A DNA stretch of 35,578 bases, taken from the NCBI GenBank assembly GCA_022361255.1, contig JAKSBG010000437.1:1-35578 (forward strand). Reading direction: 5' to 3'. The notes beneath the pieces are model-generated. The model had not been told where the DNA came from. It did no database searches and saw only the letters and a program-made list of their open reading frames with translations. The stretch's first letter is position 1. The number at the start of each line of letters is the position of its first letter. The position numbers and the translations under genes were made by a program. This DNA is from Verrucomicrobiales bacterium (GTDB taxonomy: Bacteria > Verrucomicrobiota > Verrucomicrobiia > Verrucomicrobiales > DEV007). Positions 3,001 through 32,583 of this stretch are shown one piece after another.

Positions 3001-6000
3001 TTTCGGTGCAGACCGACTCTATCTCCGACCGCAGCACCTTCCCCGCCGCGTTTTTCCTGCCCGCTCCGATTCCTGCAGAAACATTCCGCACCCACGGCTG
3101 CCCCGCTCCTTCGTTGGAGTAAATTTCAATCGAGCCCTGATCGCCCTTTCGAACGACCGTCTGCATGGTGGTCGGACCGGATACCATCAGTGGCATCTCG
3201 AAGTTAAGATTCTCCAACACCCCGGCACCTCCCGTCGCGGCGACTGCCATCTCCACGTATCCGGCGCCGGGAAAGAGAACATCCTCAAACACGCGGTGAT
3301 CTCCGAGCCAGTGCTGTTTTTCCGGATCAATGTAGGATTCAAACCGCGATTCGTTCGATACTCCCGCCAGCTCCCGCTTCTCTCCCAGAATGGGATTTTG
3401 CGTCAATTGCTGAACCCGGGAAAGACCGGGCCGCTCCGGTCCCCAGTGACGCTTGCGCTGGAACGGATAAGTCGGCAGGGCAACCCGGCGACGATTGCCA
3501 TCCGGGTTCAGAATCGCGTCAAAATCGAGAGTGGCGCCCTGCTGAAAGAGCCTCGCGGTTGCTTCGTTGAGTAGGGTGCGATCATTGCCATCCTGTTCGA
3601 TGGTCGAAATGAGCGTTTCGGGAGAGCCACTCCAACAGGCGGCTGCCATTCCGGTGAGAAAGGCGCGCGGTCCCAGCTCGAGGATCAGGTCGCAGCGGTG
3701 TTCAGCGAGGTGCTGAATGCTTCCCTCAAACTGCACTGCCTCGCGAAGCTGTTTGCGCCAGTAGTCCCCGTCGGGAACAAAGTCAGGTGCGAGCACATTT
3801 CCTGACACATTGCAAATAAGTGGAATCGCAGCAGGCTGGAACGAAATCGAATCCGCCACCTGAGCAAACTCGTCAAGAATCGGATCGAGTAATGCGGAAT
3901 GAAACGCATGCGAGGTATCGAGACGTTTCGAGCGGATTTCCTCTTTTTCAAAATCAGCGAGAGCGGCATCCACATCCTTTCCCGGTCCACTTATGACAGT
4001 GTGCGATCCATTGTGAGCGGCGATGGACAGCCCCTCGTAGTTTTCCACGATCCGCTTCACTTCATCAGCTCCGGAGAAAACGGCAGCCATTGCCCCCCCT
4101 TCCGGGAGACTTCCGGTGAGTCTCGCCCGTTCGTGAATCAGGCGGATCCCATCCTTCCAATCAAGCATACCGGCAACGACGGCAGCCGCATACTGGCCGA
4201 GACTGTGCCCGAGAACGAAATCAGGGGTGCACCCCCGACTTTTCATCAATTCGGCAAGAGCGAGGTGAAATGCGAACAGCGCGGGCTGGGTCCAGTAGGT
4301 ATCCGCCAGCAGTTCCCCGTCTTCGAACATCACCTGAATCAGCTCACCCTCGCGGTATTTCGACAGCTCGGCAGCACATTCGTCGAGAACCTTTCGAAAG
4401 ACCGGCTCCGACTCGTAGAGCTCGCGTCCCATGCCTTCATACTGCGAACCCTGACCAGTAAACTGCCAGGCAACTGCGGGGTTCGGTCGGGCCGGTCCGA
4501 CAGAAAGACCGGGAGCATCGGATCCGGAGGCAAGTGCGGAAAGAGAATTGAGAAGTTGATCCCTGTCATCCGCAGCGATAGCTGCCCGAATCTCAAAATG
4601 ACGCCTCGTGGAAGCGACCGACCAGCAGAAATCGGCGGGGTCGACTTCCCGGGATAGAGTCTCCCGGTACTGGGCAGCCAACTGTTGAACGGCGCCTTCA
4701 TTTTTTCCGCTCAGCGGAAGGAGAATGGGTTGCGAGACGGATTCACCAGCTTCCGTTGGCTCCTTTTCCGGAGGGGATTCGATGAGGATATGAGCGTTGG
4801 TTCCACTCATTCCAAACGCACTCACCCCGGCGATGCGGCGCTTGTTGGCGGGCCACTCCGTGGCTTCGGTGACCACTTCCACGGGTAGGCGGTCCCAGGC
4901 AATATGGGGATTCGGAGTTTCAAAATGGAGGTGCGCCGGAATCCGGTCGTTTTGAATCGCAAGCACCGTTTTGATTACCCCTGCAATTCCTGCGGCGGCT
5001 TCGAGATGGCCCAGGTTTGTTTTCACCGAGCCGACGAGGAGAGGGTCGGTTTTGTCGCGGCCTTCTCCGAGAACAGAGGCCGCTGCATTCAGCTCGATCG
5101 GATCGCCGAGCTCGGTGCCGGTCCCGTGTGCTTCGAGATAGCTGACGTCGGAGGGGGAAAGCTCAGCCCGTTTCAGCGCTTCGCGAATAACCCGCTGCTG
5201 GGAGTCGGGGTTGGGCGCAGTCAGGCCGCTGCTAAAACCGTTGTGAGTGATCGCAGATCCGCGGATCACAGCGAGGACTTCATCCCCGTCGCGCTGCGCA
5301 TCGGAGAGTCGGCGCAAGGCGACAACGCCACACCCCTCGCCGCGTAAATAGCCGTCGGCGGACGCGTCGAATGCCCGGGAGTGCCCGCTTGGGGACAGCG
5401 CATGCAGCTTACAGGTCATAATGGTGGTCTTCGGGGACACCATCACGTTGACACCACCGGCGAGAGCGCGATCACACTCGCGGTTGCGAAGGCTCTGGCA
5501 CGCGAGATGCAGTGCCACGAGTGAGGAGGAGCATGCCGTATCCACGGCGAGGCTCGGCCCCTGCACACCAAGATAATAAGAAAGGCGACCACAGAGGAAA
5601 CTGCCTGCGGAACCCGTCGCGATGTAGGGATTCAGGTCGAGCAGCGATTCGCTGGCCTCGTTCTGGTAATCATTGTGCATCCAGCCGACAAACACACCGA
5701 TGTCATTGGCCGTTTTTTCCGTGGTCCATCCGGCCCTTTCCAGAGCCTCCCAGCCAACCTCAAGAAAGATCCGTTGTTGCGGATCGACCCACGTCGCTTC
5801 CCGGGGCGAAATGCCGAAAAAGTCAGCATCCATCTGGTCGATGTCTTCGAGAAAAGTTCCGCGCCGGGCGTACATCTTCCCGGGCTCATCCGCGTCCTCA
5901 TCGTAATAGGCATCGAGATCCCACCGGTCATCGGGCAGCTCGGAGGTGACGTCCTCCTTTTCCAGCAAACTTTCCCAGAAAGCCTCCGGGCTGCTGGAGC

Positions 6001-6124
6001 GTTTCGGAAAACGACAAGCCGTCGAAACAATTGCTATCGGTTCATTCGAACCGCTCTCGGCTTCCGCGAGCTTTTGCTTTAATTCGCGAATTTTGGCGAG
6101 TGCCTCTTTGGTAGGAGAAGACAT
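1..6124 (-). CDS. Type I modular polyketide synthase, KS-AT-DH-KR-ACP-KS(Ser), partial (C-terminus off left edge)
   Basis: The frame is open from an ATG at 6124 to the window edge, giving at least 2041 residues. A charged helix at residues 1-27 looks like an N-terminal docking domain. KS1 (about 28-455) has active-site Cys198 in DTACSSS and both His motifs (EAHGTGT, NLGHLE). AT (about 550-850) has Ser641 in GHSLGQ and HAFH near 740, which predicts malonyl-CoA. DH (about 905-1190) has His943 in an HxxxE...P form of the usual HxxxG...P motif, and Asp1097 in DGAFQ. KR (about 1430-1640) has GGLGMLG near 1438, Tyr1579 in NYACGN, and an LED triad in place of LDD, suggesting B-type stereochemistry. 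ACP carries Ser1738 in GLDSL. There is no ER. KS2 begins near 1800, but its catalytic position reads DTASSSS (Ser1969). It starts 42 bp after the A-ACP gene, as the last visible gene of the operon. No clear Shine-Dalgarno sequence precedes the ATG. Family and domain order are certain; the product is not. Confidence 0.95.
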   Translation of the reverse strand, partial: MSSPTKEALAKIRELKQKLAEAESGSNEPIAIVSTACRFPKRSSSPEAFWESLLEKEDVTSELPDDRWDLDAYYDEDADEPGKMYARRGTFLEDIDQMDADFFGISPREATWVDPQQRIFLEVGWEALERAGWTTEKTANDIGVFVGWMHNDYQNEASESLLDLNPYIATGSAGSFLCGRLSYYLGVQGPSLAVDTACSSSLVALHLACQSLRNRECDRALAGGVNVMVSPKTTIMTCKLHALSPSGHSRAFDASADGYLRGEGCGVVALRRLSDAQRDGDEVLAVIRGSAITHNGFSSGLTAPNPDSQQRVIREALKRAELSPSDVSYLEAHGTGTELGDPIELNAAASVLGEGRDKTDPLLVGSVKTNLGHLEAAAGIAGVIKTVLAIQNDRIPAHLHFETPNPHIAWDRLPVEVVTEATEWPANKRRIAGVSAFGMSGTNAHILIESPPEKEPTEAGESVSQPILLPLSGKNEGAVQQLAAQYRETLSREVDPADFCWSVASTRRHFEIRAAIAADDRDQLLNSLSALASGSDAPGLSVGPARPNPAVAWQFTGQGSQYEGMGRELYESEPVFRKVLDECAAELSKYREGELIQVMFEDGELLADTYWTQPALFAFHLALAELMKSRGCTPDFVLGHSLGQYAAAVVAGMLDWKDGIRLIHERARLTGSLPEGGAMAAVFSGADEVKRIVENYEGLSIAAHNGSHTVISGPGKDVDAALADFEKEEIRSKRLDTSHAFHSALLDPILDEFAQVADSISFQPAAIPLICNVSGNVLAPDFVPDGDYWRKQLREAVQFEGSIQHLAEHRCDLILELGPRAFLTGMAAACWSGSPETLISTIEQDGNDRTLLNEATARLFQQGATLDFDAILNPDGNRRRVALPTYPFQRKRHWGPERPGLSRVQQLTQNPILGEKRELAGVSNESRFESYIDPEKQHWLGDHRVFEDVLFPGAGYVEMAVAATGGAGVLENLNFEMPLMVSGPTTMQTVVRKGDQGSIEIYSNEGAGQPWVRNVSAGIGAGRKNAAGKVLRSEIESVCTETADPAAFYQMFASLGIHYGTEFQTIRSLRYNDSEVLARLELAGDHRGYFLPPMLLDGAFQCLAVGLLRDADSSLFLPVGIESYENFSSAAIGSSAGGLWCHGKWHETEGDMRTADLTLFDDAGNVVVRLGKLKVRAVNRTALRQMTGSGSDRLLYDIQWREGELPPLNNRFSQWLVVGESPDWNDTIGNSLSEKGQHVISVVLDDTVSGSGPLLENRSAKIAPSEYDQWLELLTHYFPEEGSGQVNGIIWNTGDAPEQSVLDGPDSYTRRHCEGILEILKAMRTRRIEWLDRGFQIVTGNAAAFLPEDKVRAESAQFWGFGRVVINENPPLRGRVIDSQSPEDNTENLVDLFLTETRESQLGLRSGTIYFPRLIPSKAPVAEEGLPVSGDASYLITGGLGMLGRRGAEWLGSKGAKDIVLVSRREPTESTKELIAGIEETGCRIHVMLADISDQKSFQKLIHRIGKELPPLKGVLHAAGVLEDGLLFEQTWERFEKVLNPKKRGAALLHELTKDKELDFFVLYSSAASVLGSPGQANYACGNGYLDGLAHQRRGEGLPAQSVNFGPWTEGMAATENVIKAMELQGITPLAADEAHEAIDRLIDNDIVQATMLDADWATMRTRYPVETPPLLDELWTDSMQVSGGPAVLLEKLREADENGESRESVFKEHVETELQQVLSLPEPPGEDVPLAELGLDSLMAVEFATRIQQQVGSGFAIPPTLAFDYPSVSKLTEHLLELIDSVPAEEETVTVQAATVEDSVAIIGLGCRFPGADGVEEYWNLLHEGRDGTIDIPAERWDMEALYDPEPKPGKMYVKRGGFLPDIGEFDADFFGLSETDAIWMDPQHRMLLETSWHAMEDAGIVPDQLTDRQVGVFMGIMSTDYAQLREQIAPGDLEGSQGAGLSHSAGVGRLSFLFGFEGPGVAVDTASSSSLVAVCQAARALLDGECNLALTGGVNAILSPVNSILLCKGGVLSPDGRSKSFSAGADGFGRGEGCGVIVL

Positions 6125-6166
6125 AAAAATCAGTTACGCAGTGGACGCTTGGAGAGAGTCAGCGAT

Positions 6167-8074
6167 TCAACCCTCAAGCTCTTTTCGGAGGGCCTCTTCA
6201 GCCTCTTCTTCGCTCATTTCTTCGATGGAGCTGCCCACCGGTTCCGAACCCTTCGCGGCACCAAAATCCAGCTCTCCGAGAAGGTAGCCTGACAGATCAC
6301 AAATTCTCGGATAATCAAAGACGAGAGTCGCGGGCAGGTCGAGGTCGGATCCGAGTTGCGACTGCAGATTTTTCGCCAGCGTGACCATCGTCAGGGAATC
6401 CATTCCCGTCTCGAGAAGAGCCGTCTCGACAGCAGGCGCGGACTCACTTCCCGTCAGGGTGCGGATCTCCTCCTGTAGAAATTCCATGAGAACCCTCTCG
6501 CGGGTGGAAGCGTGGGAATTTTGAAGCTTAGACAGAATCGCACTGGGAGGTGAATCGCTCTTTTCAGGAGTCCTTTCGGTCTCTCCTCCGTACTGCGCCC
6601 GCAGCTCCTTCTTCAACACTTTGCCCGCCGGATTGCGTGGAAGATCATCGAGAAAAATGACGCGGGTCGGCGCTTTGTAAGAGGCAAGGTGCTCGAGGCT
6701 GTATGTACGAATTGCCTCTTCCTTTTTCTCTGCGCCATCCTTTGCGACGATGAAGGCCACCACCTCTTCGCCGAGCGTGTCATCAGGTAAACCGACCACC
6801 GCGCACTCTCCCACGGACGGCTCATCCAGAAGAACTCTCTCCACTTCCGATGGAAATACCTTCAGCGCTCCGACGGCAATCATATCCTTGATGCGGTCGA
6901 CGATGAAGTAGTAACCGGTCTCGTCCTTTCTCCCCACGTCGCCGGAGTAGAACCAACCGTCGCGAACCGCTTCCGCCGTTTCCCCGGGGCGATTCCAGTA
7001 ACCAATCATGACGTTGGGTCCCCGCACCGCGATTTCCCCGGGAACGTTCGCTGGGCAGGTCTCCCCTGTTTCCGGATCGACCACTTTCATTTCCACAAGG
7101 TCAACCGGAACACCGATCGAACCGGGAACGTGTCTTAGCGGATGGTTGTAGGAAGCGAACGGCGCTGTCTCGGTAAGACCGTATCCTTCGAAAATCGGCT
7201 TTTGAAACTTCTTTTCCCAGGCGAGCCCCAACTGAGGCGGCAACGTCGCTGCTGCGCAGAAATAATATTCGACAGTGTCGACATCTTCCGGGCCGCAGGC
7301 ATCCAGCATAAGTTGAAAGGTTGTCGGCACGCCGAAAAGTCTCGTCACGCGGTGATCGCGGATGAGGCGCAGGCTCTCTTTCAGATCAAAAACCCGCTGC
7401 ATCACGATGGTGGCTCCGACATTCAATCCACCGTTCAAAATCGTGTTCTGCCCGTAGCAATGAAACAGGGGAACCATCAGCAAGAGCTGATCGTCCGGCC
7501 TCATATGGCAGAGATGGTTGAAGGAGTGCACCGTCGATCTCACATTTTGATGAGAAAGCGTAGCCCCTTTCGGAAATCCCGTTGTTCCCGAGGTGTAAAG
7601 AATGATTGCCGGATCGTTCGGTTCTGTGGGATAGCAGGCTCCGGTATCGATGCGGGAGCCACCGGAAAGTGGCTTTCCGCCACAGTCACTTCCATTGTCC
7701 GAAACGGACAGGACCGGTATATCCGGAAACTCACCGGTAAATGCTTCATCCGTTCCTTGGGGAACAACCACAACGGAGGCCCCGCAATCTCCCAGAATGA
7801 AGGCTGCCTCTTCGCCGGTTAGGCGGGTATTTACGGATACCGCAATCGCCCCGAGACGAAGTGCTCCGTAATACCAGACGGGAAAAGCCAGCACATTCCC
7901 CAGAACGAGAGCCACCCGGTCGCCGGCTTTTACCCCGAGCTCCTCCAACGTAGAAGCTGCGTGCGCAGACAAAGCCTCCAGTTCGGAATAGGTGAGATCG
8001 GTCCCTTCGAAAGTCAGCGCGACTTTGTCGGGAAAAATGCGGAAATTATCGAGGAGTCCGTCGCTGATGTTCAT
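6167..8074 (-). CDS. Acyl-adenylating enzyme fused to an acyl carrier protein (PKS loading protein)
   Basis: This 635-residue protein belongs to the ANL superfamily. It has the A3 loop TSGTTG (161-166), A5 YGLTETAP (298-305), A7 SGDVG (377-381) and an A10 lysine in NPAGK (about 485). After a linker, an ACP (about 525-605) carries the phosphopantetheine serine at 560 in GMDSL. The last residues (MSEEEAEEALRKELEG) resemble C-terminal docking tails of modular PKSs. The protein probably makes an acyl-adenylate, passes the acyl group to its own ACP, and hands it to the PKS encoded immediately downstream. The lyase upstream suggests an aryl-acrylic acid substrate, but a fatty acid cannot be excluded from sequence alone. 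The start ATG at 8074 lies 34 bp after the lyase stop, with no strong ribosome site. Confidence 0.9.
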   Translation of the reverse strand: MNISDGLLDNFRIFPDKVALTFEGTDLTYSELEALSAHAASTLEELGVKAGDRVALVLGNVLAFPVWYYGALRLGAIAVSVNTRLTGEEAAFILGDCGASVVVVPQGTDEAFTGEFPDIPVLSVSDNGSDCGGKPLSGGSRIDTGACYPTEPNDPAIILYTSGTTGFPKGATLSHQNVRSTVHSFNHLCHMRPDDQLLLMVPLFHCYGQNTILNGGLNVGATIVMQRVFDLKESLRLIRDHRVTRLFGVPTTFQLMLDACGPEDVDTVEYYFCAAATLPPQLGLAWEKKFQKPIFEGYGLTETAPFASYNHPLRHVPGSIGVPVDLVEMKVVDPETGETCPANVPGEIAVRGPNVMIGYWNRPGETAEAVRDGWFYSGDVGRKDETGYYFIVDRIKDMIAVGALKVFPSEVERVLLDEPSVGECAVVGLPDDTLGEEVVAFIVAKDGAEKKEEAIRTYSLEHLASYKAPTRVIFLDDLPRNPAGKVLKKELRAQYGGETERTPEKSDSPPSAILSKLQNSHASTRERVLMEFLQEEIRTLTGSESAPAVETALLETGMDSLTMVTLAKNLQSQLGSDLDLPATLVFDYPRICDLSGYLLGELDFGAAKGSEPVGSSIEEMSEEEAEEALRKELEG

Positions 8075-8091: not shown

Positions 8092-8113
8092 CGGGTTACG
8101 GGTTCGGGTTACG
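8092..8113. repeat. Short direct repeat in the lyase/A-ACP spacer
   Basis: CGGGTTACG occurs at 8092-8100 and 8105-8113 with GGTT between, filling most of the 34-bp spacer and overlapping the lyase stop codon. Confidence 0.45.
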
Positions 8114-9848
8114 CAACTAACTCGACCTTGCCAAGAGAGTCAACGATCTCCGAAACAGCAGCAACAATTGCCCCTTCTCCGCGTATGGAATCAGCCAGAT
8201 CAGCCAGAATTTGCTCCAGCGAACGGTCCGAACCGTCGCTGATGAAGGGATCTTCACCTCCCGGCTTCTTTCCGGCTATTTCATATACCGCCTCATAGAT
8301 GGCGCGCAGATCGGAACCGAGAAGAGTCACGCCGTCACACTTCGACCGCGCCTTTCCGGCACGAAGATCCACGGCCTGAACGGCGAAAATGAGCGCAACA
8401 GCAGCGTAATTGGCAAAAAGATCCACAGACTGTGAAGCCAGATTTGCCGACCCCCAGCTGAGACCATTCACATTTTGATTGTACTGCTCGGCATGAGTCG
8501 GAAAGTGATCGACCAGGGAATTGCCGAGATGGGTCAACATCGGCATGATGGAGTTCCCCGTAATCTGAAGCCCCTTGAGATTCATATTCACCGGTGAATC
8601 CCCGTGCCCCATGAGAGAGGGAGGAAGACCGTGATTGAATTCGGGAGAAACAAGCAGCGCGATCTGCACGTCGAGATGCTTGGCAAGAAGACCGATGTGG
8701 CGACGAAGCTCGTCCATCGCCATCCCGACGTACTGACCGAGGAAATTCCCGCTTTGAAAAAACTCGCCCGCCTCGGTATCGATCAGCGGATTGTCGGTGA
8801 TCGCGTTCATTTCCGTCTCCAGCGTTTTTTCGATCCTGAGAATCCCTTCCACAATCGGGCCGATGTACTGGGGGAAGCAGCGAAGAGAATAGCGATCCTG
8901 CAGATGTTCGCGCGGATGAGCACGATCCATTTCCGTAGCCTGACCGTCCGTGAGGGCGAGAAGTCGCCTCATGATTTTGGCAGACCACGCCTGACCCGGA
9001 TGCGGTTTGCAGCGATGAACGAATTCCGCGAAAGGATCTTCATGACCGAGCAGGGCCCGGATCATCAACCCGTGTGTGGCGATGGAAATTCCGAGATAAT
9101 TTCGCACGGAATGAAGATGGTTCAGCGCAATCGCAGCGGAGAAAGAAGTCCCATTGACGATCGCCAGTGCCTCTTTGGGAAGCAGGGTGATGGGCTTGTA
9201 TCCGAGAAAATCGAGAACTTCGTCGCGATCGTATTCCCGACCGTTCATCGTGACCCGGCAGGAAGCAGCCTGTCCGGTAATGGCCCGGGCAATGGTGCCG
9301 AGCGGAATCAAGTCTCCACTCGCGCCAATCGATCCCAGCTCACCGACGACCGGCGATGCTCCGGCATTGATAAAACGAACGAGGCGCTCCACGATTTCCA
9401 TTCGCACACCCGATGCACCGCGAAGGAGCATATTGGCACGGAGCACCATGGCAGAGCGCACGTGAATTTCCGCAATCGGCTTCCCGGTTCCGGCGGCCAG
9501 AAACTCGAGCAAATTTGTCTGGGAGGCTTCGGCATCAGATGCGCAAACCGGAAGATCGGCCATGCTTCCGAATCCGGTTGTGAGTCCGTAAATCCGCTGC
9601 CCTGAATCCACCGCCTTGCGGACCAGATCCTGAGAAGCCTTCATTTCCTCGAGCACTTTCGGATCGTCCGTTATCGAGACCGATCGAGCCCCCGAGGCTA
9701 CGGAATACACTTCATCAATTGTCAATTGCTGGCCACGAAGGCAAAGCGGGCTGACCTGCCCGACATTTGACGTGTCGGTCTGGAAGGTTCGATTCGACAT
9801 CTGAAAAGAAAGGAAGGAGTAGGTAACAAAGTTAGGGTCGGCTGTCAC
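8109..9848 (-). CDS. MIO-type aromatic amino acid ammonia-lyase (HAL/PAL/TAL family)
   Basis: The 579-residue protein has the hallmarks of the histidine/phenylalanine/tyrosine ammonia-lyase family. These are catalytic Tyr87 in YGLTTGFG, the self-cyclising Ala176-Ser177-Gly178 triad that forms the MIO electrophile (in GSIGASGDL), and downstream NPLI and EQYNQNVN motifs. It should remove ammonia non-oxidatively from an aromatic amino acid to give the trans-acrylic acid. The specificity loop reads EFLAAG (115-120) and not the SHAAG form I associate with HAL, so Phe or Tyr is a better substrate guess than His. An aminomutase is also possible. I use a GTG start at 9848, preceded by GAGGGG. An ATG at 9800 would remove a non-conserved 16-residue extension. 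The next gene is an A-ACP protein, so this enzyme probably supplies the PKS starter acid. Confidence 0.9.
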   Translation of the reverse strand: MTADPNFVTYSFLSFQMSNRTFQTDTSNVGQVSPLCLRGQQLTIDEVYSVASGARSVSITDDPKVLEEMKASQDLVRKAVDSGQRIYGLTTGFGSMADLPVCASDAEASQTNLLEFLAAGTGKPIAEIHVRSAMVLRANMLLRGASGVRMEIVERLVRFINAGASPVVGELGSIGASGDLIPLGTIARAITGQAASCRVTMNGREYDRDEVLDFLGYKPITLLPKEALAIVNGTSFSAAIALNHLHSVRNYLGISIATHGLMIRALLGHEDPFAEFVHRCKPHPGQAWSAKIMRRLLALTDGQATEMDRAHPREHLQDRYSLRCFPQYIGPIVEGILRIEKTLETEMNAITDNPLIDTEAGEFFQSGNFLGQYVGMAMDELRRHIGLLAKHLDVQIALLVSPEFNHGLPPSLMGHGDSPVNMNLKGLQITGNSIMPMLTHLGNSLVDHFPTHAEQYNQNVNGLSWGSANLASQSVDLFANYAAVALIFAVQAVDLRAGKARSKCDGVTLLGSDLRAIYEAVYEIAGKKPGGEDPFISDGSDRSLEQILADLADSIRGEGAIVAAVSEIVDSLGKVELVA

Positions 9849-9979: not shown

Positions 9980-12900
9980 TCACCCCTTCCTGGCAATTGA
10001 TCGCGAATTTCGGAGTCGGCGAGGAAAAACCCGGGATCGGATCTTCCTTGTTCTTCGAGAAGATGGCCCTCCCGCAACGACTGGAGGAGGCCTCTCAGCG
10101 GGGCCAGCAACCGCCGGGATTCCCCTCCCGATAAAGAGCAAATACAGTGATGGAACGAAAAACAGGGCAAGTATGGTCGCTCCGCCTACCCCTCCGGCAA
10201 TCGTAATTGCAACCGGAGGCCAGAAGCCTCCCCCGCCCATCACAAGAGGGATAAATCCGGCAATGGTCGTCAGACTGGTCGCGACAATGTGGCGCGTTCG
10301 CCGGATTACGATATCCGCAATCGCCTCGGGGACTCCCGCCCGGGCATTCTTATCGTCCCGGATCCCGGCCATTACGACAATGGCATCGTTCACCGCAACG
10401 CCGACAAGGCCCATTGTTCCGACGACCCCCATGAATCCGAAGGGAAATCCAAAAGCCCACAGCGCACCCAGCCCCAGCCCAATCGAGAGACCGCCGACCA
10501 CCGCAACGACGAACGCAACCCGAAACGACCGGAAAGAGGTGACGAGCGTTGCGATCATGAGAACGATCAGCAGAGGAATGTCAGCCATCAAATTGCCGAC
10601 CGCTTCATCGCGTTTCGCCGCTTCGCCCCCGTATTCCATCGAATAACCGGGCGGCAGAACGAAATCCGAGTTTTCCAGCTTTTCTTTGAACTCCGTCACG
10701 ACGAGATGGGGCAGCGTTCCTGCTGTGATATATGCCTTCACTTCATTGACCCGCTTTCCATCGATGCGGGGAATCGAGGCGACCTCCGAGCTGAGATTGA
10801 TTTCCCCGAGAGCCGCGAGAGGAGTCGCATTCTGAGCTCTCCCGCGCGGGGTGAGAGGGCGCAACTCAAACGAGGATATCCTCCCGGTATCGGCGCGCGT
10901 TTCCCCCGCGAGACGAACGCGGATGGGAATTTCTTCGGTATCCTCGATTAGGGATCCGCTCTCCAGGCCCTCGAGAGAAGAATAGAGCTGCTGCTCGATC
11001 TCCCGGTGGCTCAGACCGGACATTCTCGCCTGGTGTTCGTCGAGATGCAGAGCGAGCTTCGGAACCATTTCGGTGAGATCCGACCGGGTGTGCACCACGT
11101 CCCTCGTCTCTGTCATGAGAACACGCACTTCATTTCCCAGCTTCTGAAGGACAGCCAGGTCGGGTCCGAAAATTTTCACCTCCACCGGAGCGTCAAAGGC
11201 CGGCCCCTGCTCCAGCTGGCGGACGAGCAGACGTGCCTCCGGAAATTCTGCGTCCAGTTTGTCCTGCAGTCTGCGAATCATGTCACGGGAATCGACGCCG
11301 TCGGAAAACTGAACCAGCGCCTGCGCGTAAAAGGCCGAATTTTTCCGGCGCGGCATGACGTTGTAGTAAAACGTCGGAGCGCTTTCCCCGAGAAACCAGT
11401 GAATGCGATCCACACCTTCCAGCTCCAATGCCGATTCCCGCATCTCCCGTGCGACCGCCGTCGTCTGTTCGAGCGAGCTGGAAGCAGAAAGTTCGAGCTC
11501 GATCTGAACCTGGTCCCGGTCCGCTGGCGGAAAGAATTGCTCCGGCAGTTTTTTCGCCTGATAAAATCCAAAAATGGGTAGAGAAACTCCCAGCAAAACA
11601 CCTAAAACAGGAATTCGGAACAACCCGACGAGGATCTTTCGATAGCCCCCGGCTGCCGCCTCATTTCCAATACCGTTGGACCAGAAACCATACCCTGTTG
11701 AGTCTCCCGCTTTACCCTGTTGAGTCAGTTTGTTGATCAATCCCGTCAGGGCGGGGACAACCGTCATCGCGAGAAGAAAGGAGGAATTGATCGCGAGAAT
11801 CACACTCACCGCGATAGAGCCGACAAATTCACCACTGGCACCCGGCAGCATCGCGATCGGGGCAAATGCCAACGTTGTCGTCAGAGTCGAGCCGAACAGG
11901 GGAAGAGCGAGATGCCGGATCGTTTTGAGAATCGCTTCACGAGGCGTGCTTCCGTCCCGGATTTCCGCACTGACTTCGTCGACCATGACAATGGCGTTGT
12001 CGATGAGAAGACCCAGCGCAATGATCAGTCCCGTAACCGACATCTGATGAATGGGGATTTCGAGAAAGCGCATTCCCGCAATCACCATCATGGCTGAAAG
12101 GGGCAGTGCGATCCCCACCACCACCATGCTACGCCACCCCATGAGCAGGAAGACAACGAAGGTCACCGCAAGCGTACCAACGAGCAAATTCCCCGCCAGT
12201 TGAACGAGACGGTCCTGCACGTAGGCATTCTGTGTAAAAAGAACATCCAGCTCCACACCGGGAGGGAGCGTTTTCTCAAATTCACCCAGAATTTCGTCGA
12301 GTTCCTTTGTCCACAAATCGATGCGGCTTTCCTCGCGAACAAATGCGGCGGTAACAACGGCATCGAGCCCGTCGACCATGGCGCGATTCGCGGGCGGGTT
12401 CCCGATGGTTTTCTGAATGTCGGCAATCTCGTCCAGATTTGTGAGTCGACCTTCCTCCCCATACCGGATCGGGGTGTTCCCGACCCGCTTAAGCGTATCG
12501 AAATCCTGATCCAGTTCGATGACCAATTCCGAGTTTTCATTCCGGAGCATGCCGGACGAACCTTTCGCCTCGCTCTCTTCGATCTGTTTTGACAAATCAC
12601 CTATCGTCAACCCCATGCGATGGAGCACATCCTGGGGAACCTCGACGAGAATTTCCTCTTCCGGCTGCCCGAAGAGACCGACGCTCTCCGTTCCCCGCAG
12701 CGACCGGATCTCCGCTTTCAAATCTTCCGTGAGGCGGCGCAGGATCGCGTAGTTCGCCTCCCCCTGCCCGGTCCACTTCAGCGCGAGAATGGTGGCATAG
12801 GCACGCAACTCCGGCTGCTTGAAATCCGGATTCATCGCACCCTCGGGAAGGCGTTTCGCCGTCTCCGAGATTTCGTCCCGCACGCGCGACCAGACGGTGT

Positions 12901-13204
12901 CGACGTCGGTAATGTCTTCATTCAGCTCAACACCGACGGTGGAGAGTCCGGCCATGCTGTCCGTACGGATTTCTTTGATCCCTTTTACCTTGCGGATATC
13001 CTCCTCCAGAGGACGGGAAATCTGCGACTCAACACGTTCGGCGTCAGCACCGGGGAAAACGGTTCGAATCACCCCGAAACGCTGCACGAGGATCGGATCC
13101 TCCATGCGTGGCAGAGTGGTATAGGAGGTCACTCCGGCCACTCCGATAATCCCGATCAGCAGCAGAAGCAGCCGGGGATTCTGGAAAAGAAGCGCTCCGG
13201 TCAC
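9980..13204 (-). CDS. RND efflux pump permease subunit (AcrB/HAE1-like)
   Basis: The 1074-residue inner-membrane transporter has the usual two-fold layout: TM1 (about 12-28), a porter/docking domain, TM2-6, then a repeat of the same arrangement. TM4 carries the proton-relay Asp in GLLIDNAIVMVDE (DN, where AcrB has DD), and TM10 carries VNDAIVVM. The start is GTG, sharing GTGA with the stop of the fusion-protein gene and preceded by a good GGAGGA, so the two are translationally coupled. Residues about 493-505, in the cytoplasmic linker between TM6 and TM7, are encoded by two copies of the ACCCTGTTGAGTC repeat. The last 40 residues are rich in Pro and Arg and are not typical of the family. The likely role is export of, or self-protection from, the cluster product. 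No TolC-like gene is in the window. Confidence 0.95.
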   Translation of the reverse strand: MTGALLFQNPRLLLLLIGIIGVAGVTSYTTLPRMEDPILVQRFGVIRTVFPGADAERVESQISRPLEEDIRKVKGIKEIRTDSMAGLSTVGVELNEDITDVDTVWSRVRDEISETAKRLPEGAMNPDFKQPELRAYATILALKWTGQGEANYAILRRLTEDLKAEIRSLRGTESVGLFGQPEEEILVEVPQDVLHRMGLTIGDLSKQIEESEAKGSSGMLRNENSELVIELDQDFDTLKRVGNTPIRYGEEGRLTNLDEIADIQKTIGNPPANRAMVDGLDAVVTAAFVREESRIDLWTKELDEILGEFEKTLPPGVELDVLFTQNAYVQDRLVQLAGNLLVGTLAVTFVVFLLMGWRSMVVVGIALPLSAMMVIAGMRFLEIPIHQMSVTGLIIALGLLIDNAIVMVDEVSAEIRDGSTPREAILKTIRHLALPLFGSTLTTTLAFAPIAMLPGASGEFVGSIAVSVILAINSSFLLAMTVVPALTGLINKLTQQGKAGDSTGYGFWSNGIGNEAAAGGYRKILVGLFRIPVLGVLLGVSLPIFGFYQAKKLPEQFFPPADRDQVQIELELSASSSLEQTTAVAREMRESALELEGVDRIHWFLGESAPTFYYNVMPRRKNSAFYAQALVQFSDGVDSRDMIRRLQDKLDAEFPEARLLVRQLEQGPAFDAPVEVKIFGPDLAVLQKLGNEVRVLMTETRDVVHTRSDLTEMVPKLALHLDEHQARMSGLSHREIEQQLYSSLEGLESGSLIEDTEEIPIRVRLAGETRADTGRISSFELRPLTPRGRAQNATPLAALGEINLSSEVASIPRIDGKRVNEVKAYITAGTLPHLVVTEFKEKLENSDFVLPPGYSMEYGGEAAKRDEAVGNLMADIPLLIVLMIATLVTSFRSFRVAFVVAVVGGLSIGLGLGALWAFGFPFGFMGVVGTMGLVGVAVNDAIVVMAGIRDDKNARAGVPEAIADIVIRRTRHIVATSLTTIAGFIPLVMGGGGFWPPVAITIAGGVGGATILALFFVPSLYLLFIGRGIPAVAGPAERPPPVVAGGPSSRRTRKIRSRVFPRRLRNSRSIARKG
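11691..11726. repeat. 22-bp-period repeat, two units, inside the RND pump gene
   Basis: TACCCTGTTGAGTC occurs at 11691-11704 and 11713-11726, exactly 22 bp apart. It lies in frame in the RND gene and encodes LTQQGKAGDSTGY in the linker between TM6 and TM7. The core matches the two intergenic arrays at 18512 and 29797. Confidence 0.7.
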
Positions 13205-14310
13205 GACTCCTCCTTTGTTTCCTCCGGTTCGCCGGGCTCGCCTTCCCCACTCTCTTCCAGTTCCTCCGGCTCCTCCGGATTACCCTCTTCTCCCGCAATC
13301 GCTATCGGCTGCCCCGGAACAATCCGGTGGGTTCCGTCAGCGATGACTTTGACTTTTCCATCAAGCGTTCCGCGAATCCAGGCACGGTCATTCTCGACGT
13401 GCACGACTTCCACGTAGTGACGGGCGACGCGAGCTTCCTCCCCTTCCCCTTCCACGACAAAGGCGGACCAGAGCCCCCGCGTTTCCCGGCTCAAAGCGGT
13501 CAGAGGGAGCCAGTATCCGGGAATAGATTTGGTACGTGTCAGGGTAAGGTCGACCACTTCTCCCGGCCGGTGCTGATCTGAAACCGACTCATCGAGTGAG
13601 AACACCACCGTTCGGGTGCGGGCGCTCTGATCCACCTCCGGAAGAATCGCGGTGACCGGCGTTGAGAAAGTATTCTCCCCGATGGTGAGATCGTGAAACT
13701 CACCTTCTGAAATTTCGTCGGCCACTTCGACAGGAACGCCAACCCAAACCTCCAGTTGATCTCCGCCGACAATTCGGAAAACCGGCATTCCCGGGCTCGC
13801 GACGGAACCTACTGACATCTGCTGCGCGGAAATCTCCCCTGCGAAAGGCGCTTTGAGAATGCTGTCCTCCAGATCGAGATCCACGAGATCGGCATCCGCT
13901 TCCGTTACGTTCCCACGACCGGGGCTTCCTGCGCTTTTCGAGAGAGCGTCGTCGATTTTTTCCTTCTGCAATTCGAGGCGTCGGGTATCGAGCTTCGCGA
14001 GCACGTCCCCTTTTGATACCGAATCACCGGGGCCGGCATTGATCTCAATGACAGTTCCCGCTTTGGAAAATCCGAGGTCGACCGACTCTTTTGGCCTGGT
14101 CACTCCTGTGTATGTCCTTGTCAGGGCAAATGAATCAGCAGGCTCGACGTCGATCGTATTTACGGTAAGGCGACGGAGCTCCCGTTCCCCACTGCTTACT
14201 CCCTCTTCTTCCGAGCCGGACTGTCCGCCCAGAAGAACCACAACAATCAGACCTGCCAGAAGAAGACAAACGAGCAGGGAAAGGGTGTTGTTGACCTTCT
14301 GAGCATTCAT
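13201..14310 (-). CDS. RND periplasmic adaptor (membrane fusion protein, HlyD/AcrA-like)
   Basis: The 369-residue protein starts at the ATG giving MNAQKVNN. A TTG further upstream (14361) would overlap the previous gene and add nothing recognisable. Residues about 10-28 form a membrane anchor. A split lipoyl domain follows (AGPGDSVSKGDVLAKLD ... ILKAPFAGEIS), then beta-barrel and membrane-proximal domains. The alpha-helical hairpin between the lipoyl halves is very short, about 20 residues per arm against the long hairpin of AcrA. The C-terminus is an extended Glu/Gly/Pro-rich acidic tail. It overlaps the RND gene by 4 bp, so the two form one pump. It lies 31 bp downstream of the halogenase-like gene. 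Confidence 0.9.
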   Translation of the reverse strand: MNAQKVNNTLSLLVCLLLAGLIVVVLLGGQSGSEEEGVSSGERELRRLTVNTIDVEPADSFALTRTYTGVTRPKESVDLGFSKAGTVIEINAGPGDSVSKGDVLAKLDTRRLELQKEKIDDALSKSAGSPGRGNVTEADADLVDLDLEDSILKAPFAGEISAQQMSVGSVASPGMPVFRIVGGDQLEVWVGVPVEVADEISEGEFHDLTIGENTFSTPVTAILPEVDQSARTRTVVFSLDESVSDQHRPGEVVDLTLTRTKSIPGYWLPLTALSRETRGLWSAFVVEGEGEEARVARHYVEVVHVENDRAWIRGTLDGKVKVIADGTHRIVPGQPIAIAGEEGNPEEPEELEESGEGEPGEPEETKEES

Positions 14311-14341
14311 AGAACAAAAACAGGTGGTTGGGAGCGGGAAA

Positions 14342-15970
14342 TCAGATGCCGAGTGCCTCAAAGACCTCAGCGAGGCGACCGCCCTGAGCCGGCGGAGACG
14401 GATCCTCTCCTTCTTTCATCAGGCCGCCCCGGGCAATAATTTCGCCCGCAAGTTCTTCGAGAATGACCGCGTTCCTGCGAAAGCGGGCATCCAGCTCCGC
14501 GTCATTGAGATGCTCACGCAGCTCTCCATTCAACTGGGCGAGAATCGCGATTTCATTTTGGTTGATGAACGAAAGCGATGAATCGCGGGCTGAATCGGCG
14601 TCGTGCCAGTCGCGAAAGAACTGCTGCATGCGAACGTTAAGAGCGCGAATCGACTCAATACTTTCCCCGATACGGGATACAAACCCCGGATCGGTAAGCT
14701 TGTCGTTAAAATACAGAAGCGCAGGGAATCCCCAATAGATTGCGTAATCCCACACATACTTGAGCGACATGACTCTCGGATTCCCAAAGAGACGATACTG
14801 GTCCTCGTAGGTGAGCAGATTGTCCTGAAACAACTGCAGAAAAAGCCCCTGGTATCGGGGTGCGATGAGACGCAGAGACTCCCCCGCAAGATCCCGCTCA
14901 ATCATGCTGCAAATCTGCATGTTGGCCATCGCGATATAATCGATCCCCGGAGAGTAGAGCGGGTCGAGAAAAACTCCTGCCTCCCCCGTGATTGCCCATC
15001 GGTCCATCGAATAGATCTGCTTGCAGCCATGTGCGATTTGTTTGATGGCACGGAAATCCTGAAGCTCGTCCCGATGCGCTTCAATTGCCTCGGCACATTT
15101 CGGTTCGTGCTTTCGAATCCAGGCCAGCGCTTTCTCGAACTGATTGAATTCACGGACGGGATGCAAACGGGGATCCGCCACGATTCCAATGCTGGTGGCA
15201 CCGGAAGAAAGAGGAATGATCCAGATCCAGTAGCCCTCCCCGAGAAGGTGGTTCGTGCTGAGCCAGCGTCGCGGAACATTTCCGGTGCGGGCCTTCCAGT
15301 CCGCATCTTCGCTCCAGCAATCCACGCAAATTTCCCCGCCGATACGAAACCACGCAGCATTTACCTTATGAGAAACTTCCTCCTGCAGTCCGAGCTTTTT
15401 CTTGAGCACCGCACTCCTGCCACTCGCATCAACGATCCAGCGCGACTCGATCCGGTGATCTTCCCCATCGACCCGATACTCGACTTTGTGCATCACGTCG
15501 CCGTCACAGAGCTCAACCTCTATCACCTTCGCCTTCTCGAGAAATGTCACTCCGCGTTCCCGAAGAGTTTTCACGAGGTAGTTTTCGAGGCGACCCCGGT
15601 CAATCTGGTAACCGGGAGTGGGGAAAAAATCGGTGAGACCCACTTCGAAAGCATCATCAAATGAATCACAGCCCCCGTCGAAGAAAAACCGCAGCCCGAA
15701 CTTCGGAAGCTGATCGTCGACGAGGTGCTTTTTCAATCCGACCCTTTCAGCGAGATAGTGTGCGCCCGCTTCGATGGTAGACTCTCCGACTTTGTGTGCC
15801 CCTTCCGGCACCGGAAACTCCCGGCGCTCAAGAATGAGAATTTTCAAATCAGGATGTTGATCCGACAACTGCTTCGCGAGAGTCATGCCGGAAAGACCGC
15901 CACCAAGAATCGCCACGTCATAAACCGGACCGCAGGAAGCGGCCGATGATGTTTCACCGTCTGATATCAT
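14342..15970 (-). CDS. Flavin-dependent halogenase-like FAD protein, copy 1
   Basis: The 542-residue protein has an N-terminal FAD fold with GGGLSG (23-28), HKVGES (59-64), a lysine at 90 in PKFGLRFFF in the place expected for the catalytic lysine of flavin-dependent halogenases, the WxWxIP signature as WIWIIP (248-253), and FLDPLYSPG (334-342), matching the second halogenase motif FxxPxxSxG. VDASGR near 180 is also typical of the wider family. The expected reaction is FADH2- and O2-dependent halogenation of an electron-rich aromatic, probably free or ACP-bound. A hydroxylase or dehydrogenase role in the same fold cannot be excluded. It is the first gene of the leftward cluster operon and a close paralogue of the divergent gene at 16200. 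No clear Shine-Dalgarno sequence precedes the ATG. Confidence 0.85.
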   Translation of the reverse strand: MISDGETSSAASCGPVYDVAILGGGLSGMTLAKQLSDQHPDLKILILERREFPVPEGAHKVGESTIEAGAHYLAERVGLKKHLVDDQLPKFGLRFFFDGGCDSFDDAFEVGLTDFFPTPGYQIDRGRLENYLVKTLRERGVTFLEKAKVIEVELCDGDVMHKVEYRVDGEDHRIESRWIVDASGRSAVLKKKLGLQEEVSHKVNAAWFRIGGEICVDCWSEDADWKARTGNVPRRWLSTNHLLGEGYWIWIIPLSSGATSIGIVADPRLHPVREFNQFEKALAWIRKHEPKCAEAIEAHRDELQDFRAIKQIAHGCKQIYSMDRWAITGEAGVFLDPLYSPGIDYIAMANMQICSMIERDLAGESLRLIAPRYQGLFLQLFQDNLLTYEDQYRLFGNPRVMSLKYVWDYAIYWGFPALLYFNDKLTDPGFVSRIGESIESIRALNVRMQQFFRDWHDADSARDSSLSFINQNEIAILAQLNGELREHLNDAELDARFRRNAVILEELAGEIIARGGLMKEGEDPSPPAQGGRLAEVFEALGI

Positions 15971-16199
15971 TTTTTGAGGGGAACCAGAGCTGCAGATGAA
16001 ACGGACGGAGGCAGATGCGGCTCCACATTCTCTGGTTTCAGTAGTTATGATAATTTAACCATCAACCCGCCTGCTGACAAGCACCGTTTCAGAAAGGTTT
16101 TAGAATATTCCTGAAAAACGGGTTCCATCGTTCACGGTTACGACGTATCCTTCGTTCCGGTAGTCACTATCGGAATCAATTTTCAATTTTCCACACACC
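15971..16199. promoter_or_regulatory. Divergent promoter region between the two halogenase-like genes
   Basis: This 229-bp non-coding stretch separates two divergently transcribed paralogues and must hold the promoters of the leftward cluster operon and of the rightward gene. It is richer in A and T than the genes beside it. An 8-bp inverted repeat, AACCAGAG at 15982-15989 and CTCTGGTT at 16030-16037, could be an operator. I could not assign convincing -35/-10 pairs with normal spacing. Confidence 0.45.
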
Positions 16200-17885
16200 A
16201 TGGCGGATTCGGAATCCAAACACTACGACGTGATCATCCTCGGAGGAGGACTGGCCGGACTCACCTGCGCATTACACTGCCGCAAGCAAACCCCCTCGGC
16301 CACCATTGCAGTGATTGAAAAAGCCGGGCACCCGGTCCCGGAAGCGACCCATAAAGTCGGAGAGTCCAGCGTCGAAGTGGGAGCGCATTACCTCGGCGAG
16401 TTTCTCGGGTTCAGAGATCATCTCGAAAACGATCAAATTCCGAAAATGGGCCTTCGCCTCTTTTTCGACCGGGGCGACAATTCGAAAATTGAAAACCGTC
16501 TCGAGGTAGGCGGTACAGATTTCCCCCCGCACCAAAGCTACCAGTTCGACCGGGGCCGTTTCGAAAACTTCTTAGCCGAACAATGTCTTGATCAGGACAT
16601 CGACTTCATTTCCTCCGCCCGAATCAAAGAGGTAAATCTCAATAGCGGGAAGAACGACCACGTCGTTCGCTACGAGAAAGAAGAGGAAAAAAGAGAGCTC
16701 ACCTCGCGCTGGGTCGTCGACGCAAGCGGCCGGGCCGGACTGCTCAAGCGCAAGCTGGAGCTGAAAAAAGATTCGGCCCACAAAAACAACTCAGCCTGGA
16801 TCCGTATCGGGACCCGCATCAAAGTTGACGACTGGAGCGACGACGCGGAGTGGGGGAAAAACTTTACGGAAGATCATCCCCGCTGGCAGAGCACCAATCA
16901 CTTTCTGGGGGAAGGCTACTGGATCTGGATTATCCCTCTCGCTTCCGGTTCCACCAGCATCGGAATTGTCGCAGATCCCAAAGTCCATCCTCTCGACGAG
17001 TTCAACTCGAAAGAGAAATTCCTCGCCTGGATCGAAAAGATGCAGCCGCAGCTCGGGGCGAACCTCCGTGCCAATGAATCCGCGATTCAGGATTTTCTCG
17101 CGATCAAGCGCTACGCGATGGAGTGCAAGGAAATGTTCTCAAACGATCGCTGGGGCATCGTCGGAGACGCCGGATATTTCATCGATCCTTTCTATTCGCC
17201 GGGGAATGATTTCATCGCGATGGCAAACTTCTTTGTTTGTGAGCTGATTGATCGCGACCTCAAAGGAAAGTCCAACCTGCTGCGCGTCCCCGTCTACAAC
17301 AAACTGTTCCGTCTGTTCTATCATGGCACCGGAGCCATTTTTCAGGACAACTACCCGCTTTTCGGCCACCACCAGATCATGCCGATCAAAATCGTCTGGG
17401 ACTGGATGGTCTACTGGACGATCACCGGACACATCGTCATTCAGGAAAGGATTACGGATCCGAAGATTTTCCTGCGCCACATGTTTCACCTGAAGCGGCT
17501 CAACGATTTGAACGAGACAATGCAGGCGCATTTCCGAAAATGGGGAAAAACCGTTCCGCCAATGGAGCTGGGCGGAACCATCGACACGTCGAAAATGTGC
17601 TTTCTCATGGGAGTAAACCGCTCCCTTGGAGACAAGCTCGATGACAAGCAGTTCTCCGAGCGCTTCGCGAAGAACGTCCGCCAGATGGAAACGCTTTTCT
17701 GGGAGATCGCCGACCACTCCGGTATCGAGATGAAAGCCCCCTTCCGTCGGAGGGAGCACGCCGACACCACAAAAGGCGGCTTTGAAATGGTGTTCCGGAT
17801 CTCTCAGGGAGAACCCTACGAAATGCCGGAAGACAGCGGCATGATGAAGGAGACCCCGATGACGGAAACTCCCGCCATGGTTTGA
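16200..17885 (+). CDS. Flavin-dependent halogenase-like FAD protein, copy 2
   Basis: The 561-residue protein has the same architecture as the divergent copy: GGGLAG (15-20), HKVGES (51-56), Lys82 in PKMGLRLFF, WIWIIP (241-246) and FIDPFYSPG (327-335). The two align almost end to end by eye and clearly arose by duplication. The C-terminal tails differ: this one ends in a Met/Pro/Thr-rich stretch. The ATG at 16200 has no visible Shine-Dalgarno sequence. Reaction and cofactor are presumed as for copy 1. Two copies suggest either two halogenation positions or one halogenase plus one non-halogenating oxidase. It belongs to the cluster by homology and position, although it is on the opposite strand. 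Confidence 0.85.
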   Translation: MADSESKHYDVIILGGGLAGLTCALHCRKQTPSATIAVIEKAGHPVPEATHKVGESSVEVGAHYLGEFLGFRDHLENDQIPKMGLRLFFDRGDNSKIENRLEVGGTDFPPHQSYQFDRGRFENFLAEQCLDQDIDFISSARIKEVNLNSGKNDHVVRYEKEEEKRELTSRWVVDASGRAGLLKRKLELKKDSAHKNNSAWIRIGTRIKVDDWSDDAEWGKNFTEDHPRWQSTNHFLGEGYWIWIIPLASGSTSIGIVADPKVHPLDEFNSKEKFLAWIEKMQPQLGANLRANESAIQDFLAIKRYAMECKEMFSNDRWGIVGDAGYFIDPFYSPGNDFIAMANFFVCELIDRDLKGKSNLLRVPVYNKLFRLFYHGTGAIFQDNYPLFGHHQIMPIKIVWDWMVYWTITGHIVIQERITDPKIFLRHMFHLKRLNDLNETMQAHFRKWGKTVPPMELGGTIDTSKMCFLMGVNRSLGDKLDDKQFSERFAKNVRQMETLFWEIADHSGIEMKAPFRRREHADTTKGGFEMVFRISQGEPYEMPEDSGMMKETPMTETPAMV

Positions 17886-31938: not shown

Positions 31939-31995
31939 GTCTTACTATACACCGCTCTCAATCGTCGAATCTCACGAAGATTTTTGAGAAAGAAA

Positions 31996-32583
31996 ATGCC
32001 AGAAGCAAAAACAGAAACCCGAAGTCCCCGACTCCCGTCCATTTTGTGGGGGCAGATTTTCCAGTTTCTGGCCTACGTGGGCATCTGCGGTTGGCTGATC
32101 CGACTCGTCGCTTCGGGAAGTTCACAACCGGAAGTGGCTGCCAAACTGGATACCATCATCTTCACGGATTTTTTCGGCTACTTCCTGATTTCCCTGCTCT
32201 TTCGCAGTGATTCGAAATCGGTTCGCTGGGTCTGGCCGATGTCTTCTGATGAAATCCTGAGAATCGTCGGATACATCCTCCTCATTCTTGTGGCAGGTTG
32301 GTTCATGGAAGGCGTGGCCGGATGGCCGCTCACGCTTGCGTGGATGCTGGGTCTTTTGACCAGTCTGACAGATGTGGAGTCGCTTCGCATCGGAGCAATC
32401 ATCCGCGTGGTCTGGGCGATCAGTAGCGGGTTTCTTGTCGCGTTGGTCGGATCCATTGCCGGAGTCCCGGAGAAATCCCTTCTCGAAAACCACGTCCCCA
32501 CGCTGTTTGCCTGGGGCCTACTCTATTTCGGCGGTGTCGCTTTATTCCGACTGGTCCGAATCTGGCTCGTCGGCTCCGGCTGA
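31996..32583 (+). CDS. Small integral membrane protein of unknown function
   Basis: The 195-residue protein has about five hydrophobic helices: near residues 20-38, 52-66, 84-102, 107-118, and the last 70 residues. No motif is recognised with confidence; a DUF3054-like protein is a loose guess. I use the ATG at 31996, preceded by GAGAAAG, rather than a TTG at 31984. The 3' end overlaps the end of the convergent MscS gene by 42 bp. It is divergent from the sigma gene. Confidence 0.65.
   Translation: MPEAKTETRSPRLPSILWGQIFQFLAYVGICGWLIRLVASGSSQPEVAAKLDTIIFTDFFGYFLISLLFRSDSKSVRWVWPMSSDEILRIVGYILLILVAGWFMEGVAGWPLTLAWMLGLLTSLTDVESLRIGAIIRVVWAISSGFLVALVGSIAGVPEKSLLENHVPTLFAWGLLYFGGVALFRLVRIWLVGSG

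Follow-up and report, generated by a model that had tools for sequence, protein, structure and literature searches.

The two head-to-head genes in a 35,578-nt stretch from a Verrucomicrobiales bacterium (the window) raise the question of whether their products, HalA and HalB, halogenate two positions of one compound, or whether one of them is a halogenase and the other an oxidase. Both options had been considered in an earlier note on this DNA. With a probability of about 0.58, we consider HalA and HalB to be two FADH2-dependent halogenases that act at different positions of a carrier-bound, probably iteratively built aryl-polyene. The two genes and their neighbours are listed in Table 1.

Table 1. 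Position of HalA, HalB and the neighbouring features in the window.
Feature	Position	Strand	Basis
Type I PKS, frame still open at the window edge; domains KS-AT-DH-KR-ACP and a KS with Ser for the active-site Cys	2..6133	-	Pfam, open frame
AMP-dependent acid ligase with carrier domain, putative starter loading	6167..8074	-	Pfam AMP-binding, AMP-binding_C, PP-binding
Aromatic amino acid ammonia-lyase, PAL-like	8109..9848	-	Pfam Lyase_aromatic, solved relatives, pocket pair FL
RND permease, probable exporter	9980..13204	-	Pfam ACR_tran
RND periplasmic adaptor (membrane fusion protein), overlapping HalA at its end	13201..14361	-	Pfam HlyD_3, NCBIfam RND_mfp over cut-off
HalA, FAD-dependent halogenase-like, 542 aa	15970..14342	-	ORF, Pfam, alignment, model
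Divergent intergenic stretch, 229 bp	15971..16199	.	Between the 5' ends of HalA and HalB
HalB, halogenase-like, 561 aa, head to head with HalA	16200..17885	+	ORF, Pfam, alignment

The earlier description of two paralogues in head-to-head orientation, which share a lysine and the WIWIIP and FxxPxxSxG motifs, was confirmed and could be given exact coordinates. HalA and HalB are identical at 226 of 502 aligned positions (45%, BLASTP E 1e-151), a likeness far beyond chance. The pair carries the flavin motif as GGGLSG and GGGLAG, and WIWIIP is present in both proteins. FxxPxxSxG is one spacing of the published halogenase motif Fx.Px.Sx.G (PMC7336383), which is complete in HalA (FLDPLYSPG) and in HalB (FIDPFYSPG). 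The supposed difference between the C-termini is limited to the last 25 residues of HalA and the last 52 of HalB, which fall outside the alignment; homology of the C-terminal domains extends to A517/B509. HalA is probably the first gene of an operon on the minus strand. Two promoter-like sites, one per strand, were present between 15900 and 16260 (0.3 expected; consensus matches only). Both proteins matched the Pfam family Trp_halogenase (PF04820; 64.4 bits for HalA and 57.3 bits for HalB, cut-off 21), a family name that says nothing about the substrate. The scores for the CmlS equivalog NF033113 of NCBIfam (86.5 and 71.8 bits) lay below the cut-off of 900.

HalA and HalB have two lysines in common. 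At the sites of K90 in HalA (LPKFG) and K82 in HalB (IPKMG), each of the six solved references also has a lysine, and we take this residue to be the catalytic lysine of CmlS and PltA. The lysine of HKVGES (K60) was dropped as a catalytic candidate, as the six references have R, Q, H or V at this site. We counted residues in 104 family proteins (>300 bits to HalA or HalB, identical cores removed): K90, W248, W250, I252, D336, P337, S340, G342 and D344 were invariant, P253 was kept in 102 and F334 in 100. G23, G25 and G28 of GxGxxG were invariant in the 57-sequence alignment A3, one of two structure alignments (A3 and A4, with 57 and 30 rows) assembled from 73 listed locus rows and the window pair.

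These residues do not prove halogenation, because all 24 distant paralogues of about 430 aa that served as a control carry the whole set (K90, WxWxIP, F, D, P, S and G). This control also bears on the view that neither protein halogenates and that the subfamily consists of flavoprotein tailoring enzymes for aryl-polyenes, the motifs marking an older shared reaction. Our literature search found no family member with a published measured activity, and the annotation of plasmid-borne relatives ranges from "NAD(P)/FAD-dependent oxidoreductase" to "tryptophan 7-halogenase". We nevertheless consider this view unlikely, since the presence of a halogenase gene goes along with bromine in the pigments of Xanthomonas and Lysobacter, which we link to the family by description: two Xanthomonas species have such a gene in their xanthomonadin clusters and 0-2 Br in their pigments, whereas the cluster of Lysobacter enzymogenes is described without one and its pigment without a Br isotope pattern (PMC3691225).

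The predicted structures had mean pLDDT values of 91.3 (HalA) and 90.5 (HalB), and the HalA model was used for a fold search. The best match was PltM (Z 31.9, rmsd 2.9, 432 aligned residues), and the top 18 entries were all halogenases or 3nix (Z 28.3-31.9; 16-23% identity in the structural alignments). The entry 3nix, which is labelled only "flavoprotein/dehydrogenase", scored as high as true halogenases. PqsL was the first clear non-halogenase (Z 27.4), and CmlS followed at rank 47 (Z 26.4), below several hydroxylases. Judged from this model, the gap between halogenases and hydroxylases is modest (31.9 vs. 27.4). The nearest solved sequences to HalA were mostly halogenases (CmlS, CndH, PltA, ChlB4); for HalB, PltA came first and 3nix second. 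Thus, HalA and HalB share GxGxxG, WxWxIP, Fx.Px.Sx.G and the aligned lysine with two-component halogenases of the PltA/CmlS/CndH/PltM type, and HalA also shares their fold. They differ from this type by the low identity and by their position in a deep separate clade. Furthermore, SPGxD of the family corresponds in the six references to S(S/Q/Y)G, then V/A, then H, S or T. Profile, solved relatives, residues and the fold of HalA support that HalA and HalB are halogenase-like, as was first proposed, and both are likely to have halogenase activity.

Monooxygenases of the p-hydroxybenzoate hydroxylase type also have the HalA fold, which would be compatible with one halogenase and one non-halogenating flavoenzyme (oxidase, desaturase or hydroxylase) that share one chain as substrate. 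The divergence of the HalA and HalB orthologue groups points in the same direction: seven differences between them are near-fixed (at least 13/14 in each group), five of these C-terminal, from residue 380 onwards. However, all tested halogenase residues are retained in both groups, and WxWxI is described as blocking monooxygenation in a preprint (PMC12871659). We consider such a division of labour improbable. Two halogenation positions are favoured because HalA and HalB form separate, co-conserved orthologue groups that both have every tested motif residue.

The minus-strand genes downstream of HalA encode, in this order, the RND adaptor, the RND permease, the lyase, the ligase-carrier protein and the type I PKS. 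An ordinary aryl-polyene cluster was considered and rejected once the long open frame proved to be a type I PKS. No ApeP-like protein was detected by Pfam in 19 of the 20 called window genes (all except the gene at 31984..32583), and the arrangement of a type II aryl-polyene locus, with a stand-alone KS/CLF and an ApeP-like dehydratase beside the halogenase, was not found in the window. As judged from the predicted genes, the pair is accompanied in its loci by a PAL-like lyase and a ligase-ACP, together with a type I PKS whose terminal KS-AT has lost active-site residues. A substrate bound to an ACP is plausible from the operon context.

The best solved match of the lyase was 9eq5 (604 bits), named histidine ammonia-lyase, followed by 2nyn (540 bits) and NpPAL 2nyf (532 bits), whereas 2o78 and 2o6y scored only 198 and 194 bits. 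We take 2o6y to be a tyrosine lyase. The pocket pair, which presumably indicates the substrate class, was FL in seven of the eight lyases compared and FH in the eighth, from the aryl-polyene locus L051. The enzyme thus looks like a phenylalanine-type lyase, its closest solved relatives including cyanobacterial PALs. A p-coumarate starter had been our first guess and was dropped on the basis of the pocket pair and the closest solved relatives. Because the lyase looks phenylalanine-type, a phenol ring as the site of halogenation is not given. The unactivated phenyl ring of a cinnamoyl starter would be a poor target for electrophilic halogenation, so the halogens would be placed on polyene or enol carbons, or an unseen hydroxylation of the ring would have to come first. 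A PAL-like orthologue (53-62% identity) was found in 13 of the 14 planctomycete or RND-type genomes searched; it was not found in the genome of locus L062.

The complete PKS could be followed in a genome of the same genus (G004), where Pfam gave the domain order KS-AT-DH-KR-ACP-KS-AT; in the planctomycete locus L066 the second AT was missed by Pfam. Codon-based gene calling missed genes at some loci (e.g., the PKS of L161-L163), and open frames were used there. In all 16 sequences that cover the site, the second KS reads DTASSS(S/A), with Cys replaced by Ser, and the second AT-like part lacks the Ser of GHSxG (16/16). The first KS and AT are intact where covered. The rest of the window PKS is probably located on contig C271 (L143) of the same genome, since this piece has 57% identity to the PKS tail of G004 and, again like G004, an SDR-like gene behind it. 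The position of a dead KS-AT behind one reducing module points to iterative use of the enzyme, with a part that may resemble a chain-length factor. Since a second KS-AT is absent from the type I PKSs in L092 (Ktedonobacteraceae) and L129 (Nocardiopsis), this part is not required for multiple halogenases.

We scanned named genomes and kept the best 80 of 533 relatives, which included many close kin (Variovorax). Of 18 loci counted among these and the window, 16 had both a HalA-type and a HalB-type gene (window, L060-L072, L074 with an incomplete HalB, and L075). The two exceptions were L059, which ends just upstream of HalA, and L121 with HalB only. The genes are divergent, with RND genes beside HalA, in four of these loci (window, L060, L061, L075); the remaining twelve have them in tandem. 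Within the genus, G004 has the complete gene order, and G002 shows HalA, adaptor, permease and lyase up to the contig ends. The genome G024 has HalB, adaptor, permease, lyase and ligase, with the PKS on other contigs; HalA was not found in this assembly, although HalB is present. Among 392 genomes of the planctomycete phylum, nine match HalB at 1e-100, four of them with an adjacent pair. Three of these four were additional to the loci above and have the order ligase, PKS, HalA, HalB. In two planctomycetes (G494, G515) the contig with the cluster is about as long as a whole genome (7.4 and 7.2 million bases), so that these are probably finished genomes from cultured strains. Only three of 387 genomes from the phylum of the window, its own included, match HalA at 1e-60, and the cluster is therefore rare and patchy. 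Pattern A1 gave 69 matches on viral contigs, with no relative among them. The plasmid collection yielded 69 records, two of which cover at least 80% of HalA (Janthinobacterium, Gloeothece); the Janthinobacterium relative adjoins a type I PKS.

The copy number of the family genes tracks the PKS type. Among the best 80 of 533 relatives, all 54 loci of the aryl-polyene (type II) class had one family gene, a class that was assigned leniently (any of five L051 proteins at >40 bits) and within flanks that end at 10 kb. At least two family genes were present in 16 of the 17 type I PKS loci: 14 had two and two had three, and in L074 the second gene is cut by the contig end. Neither marker was found within the flank in nine of the 80 loci (eight with one gene, L075 with two). 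This distribution speaks against the proposal that both proteins halogenate cinnamate as a free small acid, or some other compound that is not on the PKS. The lyase and the ligase do stay nearby in planctomycete and verrucomicrobial loci, as this proposal would predict, but HalA stands in one operon with the PKS and the unactivated ring is an unlikely target. We regard it as quite improbable.

The history of the pair was followed in trees with 87, 40 and 41 rows, with 144 non-identical sequences at hand. HalA and HalB types (16 rows each) formed fully supported clades in the 87-row tree, each with verrucomicrobial and planctomycete members, and both clades reached 100/100 in the careful 41-row tree. 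A joint clade of both was rejected (23.3 log units worse, p-AU 0.018). The HalB clade grouped with a gene from an aryl-polyene cluster (G384) in the 87-row tree and with 95/86 support in the 41-row tree. This grouping is not certain, because the 40-row tree with fewer columns placed G384 outside HalA and HalB together, with weak support (89/83, 81/76). From the clade support and the rejected joint clade, the pair is old, and two lineages may have contributed to it. The term "duplicated" thus applies in a deep sense only. A recent tandem duplication with redundant copies could be imagined from the adjacent position and the 45% identity of the genes; with planctomycete orthologues in each of the two clades and the joint clade rejected, it is hardly credible.

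In the 40-row tree the family formed a deep clade apart from the six reference halogenase sequences. The long paralogues L047 and L052 fell inside it (86/99), so its border is not sharp. Three copies stand beside a type I PKS in both L092 and L129, and two in Chloroflexi (L138). The L138 pair are sisters and the six copies of L092 and L129 form one clade in the 87-row tree, which points to at least three multiplications of family genes.

From these data we propose that HalA and HalB would act as two-component halogenases of a subfamily without a characterised member, which otherwise accompanies aryl-polyene pigment clusters. By analogy to the known family, a reductase encoded outside the cluster would supply reduced flavin, which would react with O2 to the C4a-hydroperoxide and oxidise a halide. 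The resulting HOX would pass the Fx.Px.Sx.G tunnel to K90 (HalA) or K82 (HalB), from which electrophilic halogen would be delivered. Cinnamate from the PAL-like lyase would be loaded by the ligase-ACP and elongated on the PKS, probably in an iterative manner, with the C-terminal dead KS-AT acting like a chain-length factor. Halogenation would take place while the aryl(poly)enoyl chain is still bound to the carrier domain of the adjacent type I PKS, or after the product has been released. HalA and HalB would use two different positions, either ring and chain or two sites on the chain, and the product would exit via the RND pump. A wider generalisation is tentative, and we think it possible but doubtful as a whole: an iterative type I synthase encoded by one gene, with its own dead KS-AT as chain-length factor, would make a cinnamate-started polyene in planctomycetes and Verrucomicrobiales, two dedicated halogenases would act at separate sites, possibly on the chain rather than on a phenol ring, and the family would have multiplied at least three times together with type I synthases.

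The closest known systems include the xanthomonadin and aryl-polyene clusters with halogenase genes (Xanthomonas, Azoarcus arcA, Variovorax). Among the best 80 of 533 relatives, 54 loci were of the aryl-polyene type, Variovorax paradoxus included. Conserved halogenase genes at aryl-polyene loci are indicated in the legend of Figure 5 of PMC3691225, the reference list of which also holds a title that assigns two bromines to xanthomonadin I. Two genes of a Xanthomonas xanthomonadin cluster are labelled halogenase and putative reductase/halogenase (PMC3838355). These clusters, of which Xanthomonas and Azoarcus are likened by description, have one copy and a dissociated type II system, whereas the HalA/HalB loci have two copies, a type I PKS and a PAL-like lyase, and the window also an RND pump. 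Flexirubin biosynthesis likewise starts with an aromatic amino acid lyase, but the window lyase scored 246.6 against the FlxA cut-off of 700, has a PAL-like pocket and is accompanied by a type I PKS. For the cabrillospirals, the authors name type I PKS, halogenases and a planctomycete MAG as best candidate; a p-hydroxybenzoate starter is expected there and key genes are said to be lacking (PMC11187115; likened by description). Titles and the beginnings of abstracts gave no published description of the paired HalA/HalB cluster, and a term look-up in the mSystems 2021 halogenase survey (PMC8269204) gave no match. We conclude that the enzyme class is known and that the paired subfamily and its setting appear to be new, as far as this literature search goes. 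Two dedicated halogenase types stand here beside a single-polypeptide synthase, and each could be assayed separately. If halogenation of the chain is true, these enzymes would extend beyond electron-rich arenes.

G024 (contigs C168, C140 and C295), a genome of the same genus, retained HalB, the lyase and the ligase without HalA, and its PKS was located on other contigs. A third halogenase-like protein of 616-623 aa was encoded in G004, also of the genus (L047, 1..1689), where it adjoins the cluster, and in the window's genome (L052 on contig C395, 11412..13283), where it lies on a contig separate from the cluster. Many genomes of the genus harbored a halogenase-like protein of about 430 aa with all motifs present (L030-L042; L053, 70..1347).

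The verrucomicrobial aryl-polyene cluster L051 combined one family halogenase with a flavoprotein resembling the solved structure 3nix. Some Chloroflexota halogenases (L092, 6282..8075; L138, 397..3882) carried an N-terminal stretch similar to 'LSPEKREELAQLLQQK', which may resemble megasynthase docking segments.

Coordinates of the PKS and of the L051 flavoproteins
Feature	Location	Strand	Remark
Type I PKS with terminal KS-AT	window 2..6133, with probable remainder on L143	-	KS Cys to Ser, AT Ser lost
Family halogenase and second, 3nix-like flavoprotein (412 aa)	L051 6410..8008 and 8532..9770 (G384)		

The terminal KS-AT with both changes was found in the window PKS taken together with its probable remainder L143, and in L144, L063-L072, L074 and the planctomycete loci L161-L163. 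This altered PKS end is kept in two phyla, and it is possible that it acts as a built-in chain-length factor.
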